Of a stretch of 64,000 nt of DNA, positions 24,873 to 34,746 are shown piece after piece (position 1 is the first letter of the stretch; the number at the start of each line of letters is the position of its first letter). The notes under the pieces are model-generated. The model saw only the letters and a list, made by a program, of their open reading frames with translations. It made no database searches and had not been told where the DNA came from. Source of the stretch: an uncultured Pseudomonadota bacterium. Its GTDB lineage: Bacteria; Myxococcota_A; Bradymonadia; Bradymonadales; Bradymonadaceae. The translations under genes were made by a program, and so were the position numbers. The stretch is taken from contig CATLTV010000003.1 in NCBI GenBank assembly GCA_950059285.1, forward strand, positions 1 through 64,000. Reading direction: 5' to 3'.

Positions 24873-25202
24873 ATGAGTGAAGAGAAGGCGTGTTGTCCTG
24901 CGCCCCGGGATGTGATTGAGGCAAAGAGTGAGGAGGAGGCAAACGAGATATTTGCAGGGTTTGCCAAGGCATTGGGGCATCCCACACGGGTGGCAATTTT
25001 GAAGATGTTGATTGAGCGTAAGAGCTGTGTTTGTGGCGAGATTGTGGATGAGTTACCGATTGCGCAGTCCACGGTGTCCAAGCATCTGGCGCAGTTGAAG
25101 AAGGCGGGGCTTTTGCGGGGTGAGATTGATGGTCCACGGGTGTGTTATTGCATTGAGCCTGGTGCATTGAGTTTATTTAAAAAGATGTGCGAAGACCTGT
25201 AG
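24873..25202 (+). CDS. arsR: ArsR-family metalloregulator
   Basis: 109 residues, a winged-helix repressor. The core runs [17 protein letters not shown], then [31 protein letters not shown] and a wing with RVCYCIEP. The arsenite site ELCVCDL of classical ArsR is represented by SCVCGEI, with further Cys at residues 7-8 and in VCYC, so As(III) or a related soft metal is the likely ligand. It is first in a three-gene arsenic operon and is preceded by a perfect dyad. Confidence 0.9.
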
Positions 25203-25242: not shown

Positions 25243-26277
25243 ATGGGTTGTTTTGAGAAATATCTTTCGATATGGGTCGCGCTGGCGATGATATGTGGTG
25301 TGGTGGGGGGGATGGTCGCACCGGATGTATTTGGTGTGATCGCAGAGCTTGAGTTTGCGAGGGTGAACCTTGTGATTGGAGTGCTCATCTGGCTGATGGT
25401 GTACCCGATGATGCTGAAGGTTGATCTGTCGAGTTTGAGGGGAGTGGGGGATGCGCCAAAAGGGCTTGCGTTGACGTTGGTTGTGAACTGGTTGATCAAG
25501 CCTTTTACGATGGCAGCACTGAGCGTGTTCTTTTTTGAGTATGTGTTTGCGGGCTTTGTGTCTGCGGATGAGGCGCAGCAGTATATTGCAGGGATGATCT
25601 TATTAGGGGTTGCGCCATGTACTGCGATGGTCTTTGTGTGGAGTCATCTGACCCGAGGGGACGCGAGCTATACGTTGGTGCAGGTTTCTGTAAATGATCT
25701 TGTGTTGGTGGTGGCGTTTGTGCCCATTGTCAGTTTGTTACTGGGTGTCACTGAGTTACAGATTCCATGGGGCACGTTGTTGGTGTCTGTGGTGGCGTTT
25801 GTTGTGGTGCCATTGATCGCGGGTGTTGCGACACAGACGTATTTATCAAAGCGGGGAGGTGCAGAGGCTGTGGAGCGTTTGTCGAGTCGTCTCAAGCCAA
25901 CCTCCGTGATGGGTTTGTTGTTGACGATTGTGATTCTGTTTGGGTTGCAGTCCGAGACGATCACAAGCCAGCCTGGTCATGTGGTGTTAATCGCGGTGCC
26001 GTTATTGATTCAGAGCTATGGTATTTTCTTTTTATCATATGGGTTTGCGTATGTGTTGAAGTTGCCGTTTAGAATTGCTGCACCTGCGGCGATGATTGGG
26101 ACTTCAAACTTTTTTGAGCTGGCGGTGGCGGTGGCGATCAGTCTGTTTGGGCTGCATTCAGGAGCAGCGCTGGCCACGGTAGTTGGTGTGTTGATTGAGG
26201 TGCCCGTGATGTTATCGCTTGTGGCATTTGCCAATCGTACACAGGGGTGGTTTTCGTCTGATTTTTCAGTGAAGTGA
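25243..26277 (+). CDS. acr3: ACR3-family arsenite efflux permease
   Basis: 344 residues, about ten membrane helices. ACR3 hallmarks: [44 protein letters not shown] with the essential Cys in helix 4, and [25 protein letters not shown]. It exports As(III) from the cytosol in exchange for protons. GAGGGTGA precedes the ATG, 40 bases after arsR; the arsC fusion starts nine bases after its stop. Confidence 0.93.
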
Positions 26278-26285
26278 GGTGAGTT

Positions 26286-27158
26286 ATGTCCAGGTTAGAT
26301 GCACGTTCGATCGTATTTCTTTGTGTAGCAAACTCTGCGCGGTCGCAGATTGCAGAGGGGTTTGCGCGAGAGCTTTTGGGTGATGATGTCAAGGTTCAGT
26401 CAGCAGGATCAAGTCCAACACAGGTGAATCCGTTGGCGATCGAGGTGATGAAGGAGGTGGGTATAGGCCTTGAGCAGCACAAGTCGACCTCGATTGATTC
26501 GATTGATTTTGAAGGTGTTGATCTTGTGATCACGCTCTGTGCGGATGAGGTGTGTCCTGTGTTACCTGCTGGTGTGGAGAGGATGCACTGGCCTGTACAG
26601 GATCCTGTGAGTTCAGATGGTGGTGTGAGCAGGGAAGAGCAGGTCAAGCGTTTCAGGAGTGCACGCGAGAATATCAGGGCACGCCTTGAGGTGTTGGCAG
26701 CCTTGAGGGATATGCCTGATGGCCCTGAGGCTCAGGAGTTTCATGTCAGTATACGTGTGCCGAGCTTGTCGGAGGCAGCGAGGTTTTATGGGTGGTTGCT
26801 CAATGTGCCTCCCAAGGAGTGGACACACCGTTATGTGACGTTTGTCAGTGAGCCTTTGCGTACTAACTTTGTGATTTTGGTGGACGATGGCAAGCCACTG
26901 CATCAGGACACGTTGTATCATCTGGGCATTGATGTGGGGAGCAGGGAGGCGGTGATGGCGACGCATCATCAGGCGTTGGCGGCAGGGTGGCACATTGAAA
27001 AGCCTGCGCGTACAACCTGGAGGGGGACGCCCTTGCATGAGCTTTGGCTCAAGGACCCTGGTGGGAACCTGATCGAAGTGTATGCGAGGCTGACAGAGGC
27101 AGAGCTTGCGGATATGCCAGCAGACAGGGAGCCATGGCTCCTGGTTCCTTTGGTCTGA
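26286..27158 (+). CDS. arsC: arsenate reductase (LMW-PTP fold) fused to VOC/glyoxalase domain
   Basis: 290 residues. Residues 1-140 form a thioredoxin-linked ArsC: nucleophile loop C13-VANSAR-S (CX5R), resolving Cys85 and Cys90 in LCADEVCP, and WPVQDP for the acid Asp. Residues about 152-285 are a vicinal-oxygen-chelate domain: His153 in [16 protein letters not shown], then [13 protein letters not shown] with the final Glu. This half resembles ArsI/CadI, but the paired Cys that ArsI needs to bind trivalent organoarsenicals are missing (the loop reads TTWRGTP). The reductase would make As(III) for ACR3 to export. The role of the VOC half is unknown; it might act on another arsenic or thiol species. 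Confidence 0.9.
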
Positions 27159-27337: not shown

Positions 27338-27724
27338 ATGAAGGCGCACAGAATGTTGAAGTTATTGGCGAGTCGTTATGCGGTGTTGGAAGGCCCGGTG
27401 AGGAGGCAGTTGGACGCGCAGACGTTGTTAAAGATGGTGGAGCACCTGGATGAGGAATCATCGCGGGTGTATCTGGAGCGTTTTGTGAGCAAGTGGCGAG
27501 TGGATCTGATGGAGTTGAGCGCCGCCGAGTATGAGCGTGCTGTGGAAGGCGTGGCGGTGGCTCCACCAAGGGTTGGTTTGATTCGCAGGCGTCCGATGAC
27601 GGATTTGGAGCGACTGGTGCAGGATGAGTTAAGCCAGGATGTGGTGGTGCGCGAGCAGCAGGATACTGGCTCCGAGGTGTTGGTGACGTTTGAGGATCAG
27701 GATGGCCACGTGCATGCGCTGTAA
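27338..27724 (+). CDS. small hypothetical protein
   Basis: 128 residues, not recognised. It is helical and charged in the first 65 residues, then has a basic RRRP linker, then an acidic end (TFEDQDGHVHAL). No signal peptide or membrane segment. AGGAG is well placed before the ATG. It lies about 180 bases after the arsenic operon and is followed by the longest non-repetitive perfect hairpin (H4), then by the second DUF4132 gene. Confidence 0.7.
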   Translation: MKAHRMLKLLASRYAVLEGPVRRQLDAQTLLKMVEHLDEESSRVYLERFVSKWRVDLMELSAAEYERAVEGVAVAPPRVGLIRRRPMTDLERLVQDELSQDVVVREQQDTGSEVLVTFEDQDGHVHAL

Positions 27725-30957: not shown

Positions 30958-33900
30958 ATGCTCAAGCCCAATCTTCCCAGCCTCAAACCAGGAGATCTTG
31001 TCGCAGGGCGTTTTCGCGTCGTGGAGATGGTGGGTTCTGGTGGTTTTTCGGTGGTTTATAGAGCGCGTCAGGAGGAGATGAATCGCTTTGTCGCGCTCAA
31101 GGTGTTGAAGCCCAGAGCTGCGACGGATGCACGCGTGGTGGAGAGGTTTCGTCGAGAGGCGCTCTATGCCAGTCACCTGTCGCACCCGAACACAATTACG
31201 TTGTTTGACTATGGCCACACGGATGAGGGGCTATTTTACATCGCGATGGAGTTTCTTGTAGGGATGGACCTGAGCGTGGTGGTGCAGCGCGGCGAGCCGA
31301 TGAATCTTGGGCGTGTCTGGAAGATCCTGGTGCAGTGTTGTCGGTCGTTGGCCGAGGCGCACAGGTTGGGTTTGGTGCACCGAGACTTGAAGCCAGAGAA
31401 CATCTTTTTGGTGCAGCGAGAGGAGGGTGGTGAGTCGGTCAAGGTGTTGGACTTTGGTGTGTCGAAAGCGATTTCCACGTTTGGCAATGCAGGTCCTGCG
31501 ACGATGGCTCCGTTGACACAGGAGGGGACAGTCTTTGGTACGCCATTGTACATGGCTCCCGAGCAGGCGATGGCCGAGCAGATCTCACCTGCAGTTGACG
31601 TGTATGCGTTGGGCCACATTGCATTTGAGATGGTGACAGGTCGGGCAGCATACTGGGACTGTAACAACCCGATGGATGTGATGTTACGTCAGGTCAATGA
31701 TCCACCACTTGCATTACCAGCACCATGGAACAAGACGCCCTTCTCAAAGTTAATTACACGATGCACACAGAAGAATCCAAAGAAGCGTATTGCCGATGCG
31801 AGTAAGTTGTTGGAATACCTCATGGATGATCGTTTTCTTGAGTACATGGACCCAGGTGAACGACCTGTATCCACGCGCTCCATGCCAGCGATTCCCACAA
31901 GTATTGCAGGTCAGTTTGCGCAACCCGTGGCGCGCGCCGAGGATGTCAAGGTTGAGGAGATGTATCGCTGGGAGCTCAAGGTGTTGGAAGACGCCTTTGA
32001 GCAGGTGAGGCATGCCCGTGAGCCGAGGATGGTGGTGTTGAGGGGGCGTCCAGGCACGGGGCGAAGCAATCTTTTGCGCGCGTTTTTGCGCAAGGCCAAG
32101 TCACAGCACAATGTAAGCGTGATTCACAGGCAGACCGCAGGTGGGCATATCCCCGCAGATGCAGGGCTTGAAGCCGATATTGCCATCGCCGCAGGGCTTG
32201 ATTTGAAGTCACGAGGATTCGACGAAGTCAAGCGTCTGATGAAGGACATGTATGGTTCACAACTTCCCGAGGACATGAACGCCGAGCGCGAGCTGACCAG
32301 TGGCCCATTGAATACGCTCGTGAGTATGCGCGATGCGTTTCTCTCACGCATTGCGGTGCCATTTCGAGAGAAAGCGGTGCGTGGCACTGTGGTGTGGGGT
32401 GTTGAAAACCTGGAGCGCGCTGACACACTTACGGTGTCGTTTTTGGACAGGTTTTACAAGGATTTGCAGGTCAGGCATGTGCCTATCTTGATCGTGGTGA
32501 CAGTAAGCCCCGACGATTTGATTCGTCGTCCAGGCATGTCACGCTACGGTGAGCGCCTGTTGGCCGCCACTCGCCCTTATGGGCGTCAGCTCTCGATTTT
32601 ACCTCCTGGAGAGCGCAAGAACGCAGGTCAGGGTGACGTCGAATATCCTGGTCAAAACACCGTAGAGGAGCTCGCCGTGAGCGGCTCTTATCTTGGCGAG
32701 ATGCCCTCCAACAACGAGACATTTCTTGATGAAGTTGCGCAGCATGAGCGCGCCTCGATTGAGGTCGGCGCAAAGACTCAGCCCTTCAGGGTTGAGGACG
32801 TCTTTGCCTCTGCGCTTGAGCAGGAAGAGAGCAGCGTGGCTCAGGTCACCACATCTGCGAATCCATCAGAGGATGATACCTTTGACCGCGTGCTTGGTTA
32901 CCTTGCTCAGTGTGGCAATGAGATCCCTTACGGGTTGTGGCGTAGCGTCAACGAGCAGGTGCTTGGGGAACGTCTTGGCAAGGTATCACCGCTGATTATG
33001 GATCAGGCCGAGCGCTTTGGGATTATCCACCAGACAAGCGACCGCGTGCTGTTCACCAAGCACTCCTATGCACACTCCCTGCGAGAAAACTTCGTCAAAC
33101 TCGATGGTGCTCGCGAGATTCAGAGCAAGTTTGCAAACATCTTGATGGATTTCTATCCATCACCAAACCGCGAGCAGCTCAAGCTGATTGTGGAGCATCT
33201 GATCGGGAGTGGTCGTCACTCCGAGGCGATTCAGATGTTACGCGACGAAGGTCAGCGCGCGTTTCGTACGCTTGATTTTGACGCTGCACGTGAATACTTC
33301 CTTAAAATTCAGCAGCTTATTGATGGCCTTGAGATCTCCTCTCCCATTGATCTTGACGGCGATGGCGTGGTGGAATCCATTGATATTGAGAGGCCACGGC
33401 TGTGGATTCGCCTGGCCGAAATCCACGGCGCATTGCACGAGTATGGCGCAGCCGAAGATGCGATCAATCGAGCGCTCAAGGAGCTTCCCGAGCGCGATGA
33501 TGCGTTGGAAGGGCGTGGATACAAGTTGCTTGGTGACTTGAACTCCAACCAGAATCGCTATGATGAGGCATTGCGTCACTATGAGCGTGCCCAGCAATCG
33601 TTGTTAAGAAGTGGCGCAGCCAACGCCTACGTTGCTGTGACAGGTGAGATGGGCCACTGTGCGTTGATGCAGGGCCGTCCATCTCTGGCGCGCGACTTGT
33701 TAAAGCAGGCGCTGGACAATGCGATCAAGCTCAAGGATGCGATGTTGTTGGCGAGGTTGGAAAAGTACCTCGGTCAGGCATTGACGACGCTGGGGCAGTT
33801 TGCAGAAGCAAGCAACAGGCTAGAGAGTTCAATGGCGCGCTTTGAGGCGATGCACCGCGATGTGGATGTGGTGGAGTGTCTTGAGGAGCTTGGACGTGCA

Positions 33901-34746
33901 GCGTATGCGTCCACACAATTTGACCGCTCGCGTGACTATTATACGCAAGCGATCGTGTTATCGGCGAGCGCTCACGTCAAATCAGGGAGGTCCCCGCACC
34001 TTGGCCTTGCCAGGGCGTTGGCCGCGCTGGGGAACCTTGACCAGGCGCAGGTACACTTGGTTGAGGCGTTGAACACCAGCATGGCCGTGAGTGATCCGTT
34101 CCGTGCTGCCGAGGTAAACCTGTACATGGGAGATTTGTATCTTGCCATGGAGCAGGCCGAGCCAGCCAACGCGCACTTTAACGAGGTGATCAAGATCAGC
34201 AAGGAGATTGGTCACACAAGGTTATGGCTTGATGCGTTGATTCGTCTTGCCTATGTGAGCTTTGAGCTTGATCAGGCAAATCAGACGTATGAGCTTCTGA
34301 CCAAGGCAGGCGAGATGGCGCAGGCGATTGGTGACCGTGACGCGGAGTTCCAGATCAGGACGCACATCATCTTCTTCCAACTCATGGAGCATAACTTCGA
34401 TGTCAGAGGTGATACGTTCTCGTCGTTGTTGGATGTGAGTAAGAAGTTAAAGTTGTCGCGCACACCAGTATTGTGTTGGCTGTTTCGTGCCGATGTCTCC
34501 GCTGCACGCAAGCAGTGGGCTGTGGCCAGAGATGAATTGCGACAGGCATACATGCATGCAGGGCAACTCGGGGATTATTCGCTCTTCATCCTCATCGCTC
34601 GCCGCGATTATTTGTTGCAGCAGCGCTTAGGGAACCTGGGTGATCCTCATGTGGGATCGGGCTGGGCAATTGGAGCGTTGATACCTCCCGAGATTGGAGC
34701 AAGACGTGGCGCATTGGCAGGAGAGTACACTCTCAGGCGAATGTGA
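30958..34746 (+). CDS. giant Ser/Thr protein kinase with AAA-type ATPase and TPR modules
   Basis: 1262 residues. Residues about 12-285 form a Hanks-type kinase with Gly-rich loop GSGGFSVVYRA, Lys in VALKVLKP, HRDLKPENIF, DFGVSK and TPLYMAPEQ. A P-loop GRPGTGRSN lies near residue 362 and starts a STAND/AAA-like ATPase region. Residues about 730-1230 contain repeated TPR helices. This PknK-like layout is common in Myxococcota and couples kinase activity to protein-protein sensing. It has no membrane segment. AAGGAG lies ten bases upstream of the ATG; an overlapping out-of-frame ATG is closer. Two cyclic-nucleotide-binding genes follow within 80-base gaps. Confidence 0.9.
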   Translation: MLKPNLPSLKPGDLVAGRFRVVEMVGSGGFSVVYRARQEEMNRFVALKVLKPRAATDARVVERFRREALYASHLSHPNTITLFDYGHTDEGLFYIAMEFLVGMDLSVVVQRGEPMNLGRVWKILVQCCRSLAEAHRLGLVHRDLKPENIFLVQREEGGESVKVLDFGVSKAISTFGNAGPATMAPLTQEGTVFGTPLYMAPEQAMAEQISPAVDVYALGHIAFEMVTGRAAYWDCNNPMDVMLRQVNDPPLALPAPWNKTPFSKLITRCTQKNPKKRIADASKLLEYLMDDRFLEYMDPGERPVSTRSMPAIPTSIAGQFAQPVARAEDVKVEEMYRWELKVLEDAFEQVRHAREPRMVVLRGRPGTGRSNLLRAFLRKAKSQHNVSVIHRQTAGGHIPADAGLEADIAIAAGLDLKSRGFDEVKRLMKDMYGSQLPEDMNAERELTSGPLNTLVSMRDAFLSRIAVPFREKAVRGTVVWGVENLERADTLTVSFLDRFYKDLQVRHVPILIVVTVSPDDLIRRPGMSRYGERLLAATRPYGRQLSILPPGERKNAGQGDVEYPGQNTVEELAVSGSYLGEMPSNNETFLDEVAQHERASIEVGAKTQPFRVEDVFASALEQEESSVAQVTTSANPSEDDTFDRVLGYLAQCGNEIPYGLWRSVNEQVLGERLGKVSPLIMDQAERFGIIHQTSDRVLFTKHSYAHSLRENFVKLDGAREIQSKFANILMDFYPSPNREQLKLIVEHLIGSGRHSEAIQMLRDEGQRAFRTLDFDAAREYFLKIQQLIDGLEISSPIDLDGDGVVESIDIERPRLWIRLAEIHGALHEYGAAEDAINRALKELPERDDALEGRGYKLLGDLNSNQNRYDEALRHYERAQQSLLRSGAANAYVAVTGEMGHCALMQGRPSLARDLLKQALDNAIKLKDAMLLARLEKYLGQALTTLGQFAEASNRLESSMARFEAMHRDVDVVECLEELGRAAYASTQFDRSRDYYTQAIVLSASAHVKSGRSPHLGLARALAALGNLDQAQVHLVEALNTSMAVSDPFRAAEVNLYMGDLYLAMEQAEPANAHFNEVIKISKEIGHTRLWLDALIRLAYVSFELDQANQTYELLTKAGEMAQAIGDRDAEFQIRTHIIFFQLMEHNFDVRGDTFSSLLDVSKKLKLSRTPVLCWLFRADVSAARKQWAVARDELRQAYMHAGQLGDYSLFILIARRDYLLQQRLGNLGDPHVGSGWAIGALIPPEIGARRGALAGEYTLRRM

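Follow-up and report, generated by a model that had tools for sequence, protein, structure and literature searches.

Organization and distribution of the arsC-VOC fusion locus

The window, by which we mean the whole stretch of 64,000 nucleotides that was analyzed, contains three genes on the forward (+) strand in the order arsR, acr3 and an arsC-VOC fusion gene, with 40 bp between the first two and 8 bp between the last two. The first gene (24873-25202, +) encodes an ArsR-type repressor, as judged from matches to Pfam HTH_5 and, above cut-off, to NF033788, and its product contains a C-x-C motif (SCVCGE). The second, acr3 (25243-26277, +), encodes an arsenite efflux transporter scoring 391.7 bits with TIGR00832 (cut-off 282.8). 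The third (26286-27158, +) encodes a protein of 290 aa with Pfam and NCBIfam domain matches; GAGGTGAG lies 5' of the ATG start in this ORF. Two Pfam domains were detected above their curated cut-offs, LMWPc at residues 9-135 (2.6e-18) and Glyoxalase/VOC at residues 153-265 (2.7e-7). On this protein we delimit an ArsC domain of the LMW-phosphatase type (26310-26696, +; residues 9-137) and a Cys-less, ArsI-like VOC domain (26736-27146, +; residues 151-287); the domain limits leave a short linker between them (26697-26735, +; residues 138-150). A 128-aa ORF without Pfam or NCBIfam match is located 3' of the fusion gene (27338-27724), and positions 30958-34746 encode a protein of 1262 aa that looks like a Ser/Thr kinase with a large helical, TPR-like region after it, an architecture typical of Myxococcota.

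A whole-genome search showed that the fusion gene is present in a single copy. The ACR3 of the operon is the sole ACR3 of the genome, and the ArsC half of the fusion is its sole clear ArsC, two weak LMW-phosphatase matches being present elsewhere. No canonical ArsI above cut-off was detected in a model search of the source genome.

A scan of GTDB contigs yielded 113 relatives, 80 of which were kept. Nearly all are full-length fusions with 50-68% identity. Their sources are Myxococcota and Pseudomonadota, together with a small number of Bdellovibrionota or other MAGs, with the proviso that MAG taxon names are unreliable (for example 'Klebsiella pneumoniae' for locus L079 and 'Chloroflexi' for locus L065). 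In an even sample, a close VOC relative (E < 1e-50) was found in 18 of the 284 Myxococcota genomes, the genome of the window included, and all 18 are in a fusion-sized frame with ArsC; among the Pseudomonadota this was 1 of 398 genomes, not counting the seed genome. The fusion is also present on complete plasmids of Methylocella tundrae, which like Marinobacter sp. ATCH36 is a cultured environmental carrier, and the annotated plasmid records examined label members of the clade just 'VOC family protein'. The presence of full-length fusions in tens of independent genomes and in complete plasmid records led us to reject a chance ORF or a local misassembly. Together with the Pfam results, the relatives in many genomes bear out the sequence-only reading that an arsenate reductase is fused here to a VOC domain. 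Frames of at least 640 aa at loci L091, L095 and L096 were considered as ACR3-ArsC-VOC triple fusions and rejected, as they reflect GC-rich read-through over an out-of-frame upstream acr3.

Conservation of the ArsC and VOC halves

The ArsC half contains the full ArsC catalytic set, namely the C13-X5-R19 loop (C13-VANSA-R19), C85, C90 and D106 (D106-P107). The codons of its three Cys, correctly recognized before as those of thioredoxin-linked ArsC, are located at 26322-26324 (C13), 26538-26540 (C85) and 26553-26555 (C90), all on the + strand. In the alignment C13 is kept in 70 of 73 relatives, and R19, C85, C90 and D106 are found in most of them as well. The ArsC of B. subtilis was a match both by profile and by Foldseek on an AlphaFold model of the fusion protein (pLDDT 87.7, pTM 0.78), with a TM (target) of 0.87 for 1jl3. 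The score with TIGR02691 was 124.9 bits, below the cut-off of 174.3; this model is strict, for of 14 control genomes 10 gave a match and just 2 of these were above cut-off. The C-x4-C spacing is two residues shorter than that in the ArsC of B. subtilis or S. aureus. The C85-x4-C90 loop had been called unusually short, a view that we reject because this spacing is the rule in the fusion family and is also present in the stand-alone ArsC of Aquicella (TLCAEEICP) and Shewanella (TLCAEEVCP). By sequence and model, the N-terminal half is shown to be an ArsC of the thioredoxin-linked type with its catalytic set intact, and it is predicted to have reductase activity.

The best solved relative of the VOC half is TcArsI, the C-As lyase of Thermomonospora curvata (profile 1.3e-12; Foldseek TM (target) about 0.79 with the AlphaFold model). 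Residues H153, H212 and E264 (codons 26742-26744, 26919-26921 and 27075-27077, +) align with Q8, H65 and E117 of TcArsI, its metal ligands, and in agreement with the ligands suggested previously the triad is kept in all relatives that could be scored. Residues C98-C99 of TcArsI, its arsenic ligands, align with W245-R246 (27018-27023, +). W245 is present in 79 of 80 sequences, and 76 of the 80 have R or K at residue 246. The lack of the ArsI Cys pair, already inferred for the window, is thus confirmed: a vicinal Cys pair was absent from all members examined, W-[R/K] being the norm at this site. Around it R242, T243, T244, H251 and E252 are invariant, the last of these aligning with K105 of TcArsI.

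With NF041414, the curated ArsI/CadI model, the protein of the window scored 44.3 bits, below the cut-off of 116, and the canonical ArsI of locus L020 scored 129.5 bits, above it. ArsI_CadI_VOC matched all 68 aligned members, weakly; extradiol-dioxygenase models matched 19 of the 68, and Fos and glyoxalase I models 1-2 each (best ~4e-4). In a quick tree the VOC clade was separated from the CC-containing ArsI proteins with full support and long branches between them. Judged from these comparisons, the VOC half is ArsI-like by origin and fold and lies outside ArsI by the features tested. The two halves also differ in constraint: of the invariant columns of alignment A1, 33 lie in the VOC half and 2 in the ArsC half, and mean pairwise identity is 0.687 for the VOC half and 0.557 for the ArsC half, the VOC value being the higher one in 93% of 3000 pairs.

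Separability of the halves and gene neighborhoods

At several loci the ArsC half has decayed and the VOC half is intact. The ArsC-half Cys are lost at L067 (S, G, T), L069 (S, G, Y) and L079, and at L080 and L081 the ArsC half is a remnant of ~95 aa; a separate ArsC-like gene was found in the genomes of L067, L069, L080 and L081. ArsC-decayed and unfused members are scattered on the VOC tree, amounting to five changes including the unfused copy, with weak support within the clade. The clearest case of separability is the operon of L124, arsR-arsC-arsH-acr3 followed by the VOC gene with decayed ArsC half and an OsmC gene, in which arsH (TIGR02690) and acr3 score above cut-off. To judge from its predicted genes, the VOC is retained there in an operon that already provides for reducing arsenate, oxidizing MAs(III) and exporting arsenite.

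On a Sulfuriferula plasmid the VOC is encoded by a separate gene, located in an arsR-arsC-arsD-arsA-VOC-CBS-arsB transposon whose operon may resemble TnAtcArs. A search of plasmids for further unfused copies yielded Sulfuriferula only. An Aquincola transposon matches the Sulfuriferula one on both sides with 89-93% identity and lacks the VOC; in this pair of Tn3-family ars transposons an unfused VOC gene is present between arsA and CBS in one (L082:6980-7531) and absent from the other (L123:4996-5026). CBS genes do occur in TnAtcArs-like transposons (PMC2440759). In a tree of the ArsC half the stand-alone ArsC of Shewanella falls among the fused ones, which indicates that loss of the VOC or recurrent fusion takes place as well. 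At the level of sequence, these results show that the VOC is independent of the fused reductase.

The sequence-only reading had proposed that the VOC half receives a reduced arsenic species from ArsC or carries out a new reaction. Chemistry unlike that of ArsI is probably correct. A need of the VOC for a substrate supplied by ArsC is weakened, however, because the ArsC half has decayed in several lineages and the VOC is also found as an unfused gene accompanied by a separate arsC, and in tying the VOC to the ArsC product the proposal was too narrow. If there is any channelling, the direction from VOC to ArsC, in which arsenate would be released and then reduced, fits at least as well as that from ArsC to VOC.

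Flanks of 3 kb or more were available for 76 loci, of which 58 had at least one ars gene and 18 had no ars neighbor among the reference genes used; these counts, obtained by tblastn with a limited ars reference set, are lower bounds. The neighbors were ACR3 (49), ArsA (19), ArsD (14) and ArsJ with GAPDH (4), in addition to ArsR types, and at L042 the order is arsR-aquaporin-fusion. ArsI-like genes with the CC motif share a cluster with the fusion at L019-L023 and L059, the L020 copy being above the ArsI cut-off. The presence of a true ArsI in the same operon indicates that the VOC half is not redundant with ArsI.

An OsmC-family gene is located immediately 3' of the fusion at 12 loci (L019:5020-5475, L020, L021, L028, L039, L053, L054, L057, L069, L083, L098 and L124:4205-4645). 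It is a weak match to the NCBI model for OsmC-related (seleno)protein and a possible functional partner of the fusion. At Rhodobacteraceae loci (L053:4148-5011, L053:6280-7956 and L058:5931-6770) universal-stress, ZIP, CDF and VIT1 genes surround the fusion. In the Bacteriovoracaceae the VOC with ArsC remnant adjoins MBL-fold, Crp-type and Rieske genes (L080:2563-5477) or peroxiredoxin and rhodanese genes (L081:3593-5483), and no ars neighbors were detected at either locus with the reference set used. The ars-less loci L069, L080 and L081, which lie among OsmC, VIT1, rhodanese, Rieske, MBL-fold or peroxiredoxin genes, suggest a broader stress role.

Proposed function and comparison with known systems

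We propose, with a probability of roughly 40%, that the fusion is a two-domain arsenic-detoxification enzyme in which the VOC half would act on an arsenical and the ArsC half would reduce the arsenate set free. The triad and the strong constraint argue for metal dependence and enzymatic action of the VOC half, and the loss of the dithiolate residues that hold trivalent arsenicals argues for a substrate distinct from that of ArsI. Since the VOC is kept when ArsC decays, occurs beside a true ArsI and is found unfused, it probably has an arsenic-related activity of its own and not the dithiol chemistry of ArsI. There is good support for the view that the VOC half depends on a metal and acts on an arsenic-related substrate of its own, unlike ArsI. 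It may bind an arsenical that is anionic and probably pentavalent or organic (arsonate, arsinate or arsenate adduct). The basic or polar site (W-[R/K], R242, T243, T244, H251, E252) would suit an anionic substrate and a trivalent organoarsenical is less likely because the dithiol trap is lost, although the change from K105 in ArsI to E252 would not favor an anion at that spot. The VOC half might then cleave the arsenical using Fe(II)/O2 or another divalent metal, the arsenate released might be converted to arsenite by ArsC, whether fused or encoded separately, and ACR3 could export the resulting arsenite. That the VOC is fused to ArsC suggests that arsenate would be released and reduced in place. 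We tentatively consider the Cys-less clade, at somewhat under even odds, an unrecognized arsenic-detoxification enzyme for an organoarsenical, either pentavalent or a natural product, or for an arsenate adduct, beyond the reach of the known Ars proteins and fused to ArsC so as to have the freed arsenate reduced directly. A precedent is the ars-operon gene arsN, which occurs fused to arsC or arsD (PMC6205960) and for which the ArsN1 protein was later shown to acetylate arsinothricin (PMC6465285). A Nostoc ArsI active on As(V) and As(III) organics alike is described in PMC6205960.

The main rival, given the ars-less loci and the recurring OsmC, VIT1 and sulfur genes, is that the VOC handles a non-arsenic stress product. 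The VOC half would then perform general stress chemistry accompanying arsenic exposure, such as peroxide, sulfur or electrophile detoxification. The CDF, ZIP, universal-stress, rhodanese and peroxiredoxin neighbors agree with this, as do L069, L080 and L081 with their decayed ArsC halves, but ars genes at 58 of 76 loci, an arsenic-specific closest family and the unfused VOC inside an arsenic transposon make it rather unlikely. It is improbable that the VOC half has remained a C-As lyase for trivalent organoarsenicals, with a free thiol such as glutathione replacing the Cys pair: the Cys pair is missing throughout, the ArsI model score is far below cut-off, a true ArsI coexists in the same operon and the clade is fully separated from ArsI on long branches, even though ArsI is the closest solved relative in sequence and fold, the metal triad is at the ArsI positions and every aligned member matches ArsI_CadI_VOC weakly.

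A FosA- or glyoxalase-like thiol metalloenzyme that makes or breaks a glutathione-arsenic adduct arising from arsenate reduction could be envisaged from the fusion to a reductase, the H-H-E triad like that of Fos proteins, the few weak matches to Fos and glyoxalase I models and the OsmC-family gene directly downstream at 12 loci. We hold this to be equally doubtful, as extradiol-dioxygenase models match far more members than Fos or glyoxalase I models do, the match to ArsI is far better, and an ArsC half of the thioredoxin type does not need glutathione. Certain VOC proteins merely bind ligands, which is the basis for regarding the VOC half as a non-catalytic binding or dimerization module; its more than 30 invariant columns, which include the full metal triad and polar pocket-type residues, and its persistence once the ArsC partner is lost make this very unlikely.

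No description of an ArsC-VOC or ArsC-ArsI fusion was found in the open-access literature, and ArsC-VOC is a real and conserved fusion family that is apparently new to it. Its spread through the ars operons of many bacteria, with a clade conserved in Myxococcota, Pseudomonadota and Bdellovibrionota, probably marks an undescribed arsenic-detoxifying reaction. Genes of ars operons without an assigned role have repeatedly proved to be resistances to arsenicals not considered before (ArsI, ArsH, ArsN1). Finding the VOC substrate would bring a further reaction into the arsenic cycle and could reveal an environmental arsenical so far unknown; the decayed ArsC halves, the unfused copy and the transposon pair with and without the VOC are natural controls at hand.

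The ArsC fusions described in the parts of PMC6205960 and PMC6514093 available (ACR3-ArsC, ArsR-ArsC, AqpS-ArsC and ArsN with ArsC) likewise join ArsC to another arsenic-resistance function, but in none of those described there is the partner a VOC or ArsI-like domain. With the pI258 / B. subtilis-type ArsC (PDB 1jl3) the fusion shares the CX5R loop, two further Cys, the D-P motif and the fold (TM to target 0.87), whereas that type has C-x6-C between the resolving Cys and the fusion has C-x4-C and does not reach the strict cut-off of TIGR02691. Extradiol dioxygenases and Fos proteins have the VOC superfamily and the H-H-E metal triad in common with the VOC half but are without ars-operon context, and the VOC half matches them far more weakly than it does ArsI. 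With the ArsI/CadI C-As lyases (TcArsI, PDB 5c4p/5hcw; NF041414) it shares the VOC fold, the metal-ligand positions and the ars-operon context, and it differs from them by W-[R/K] in place of the Cys pair, E252 in place of K105, its separate clade and its fusion to ArsC.
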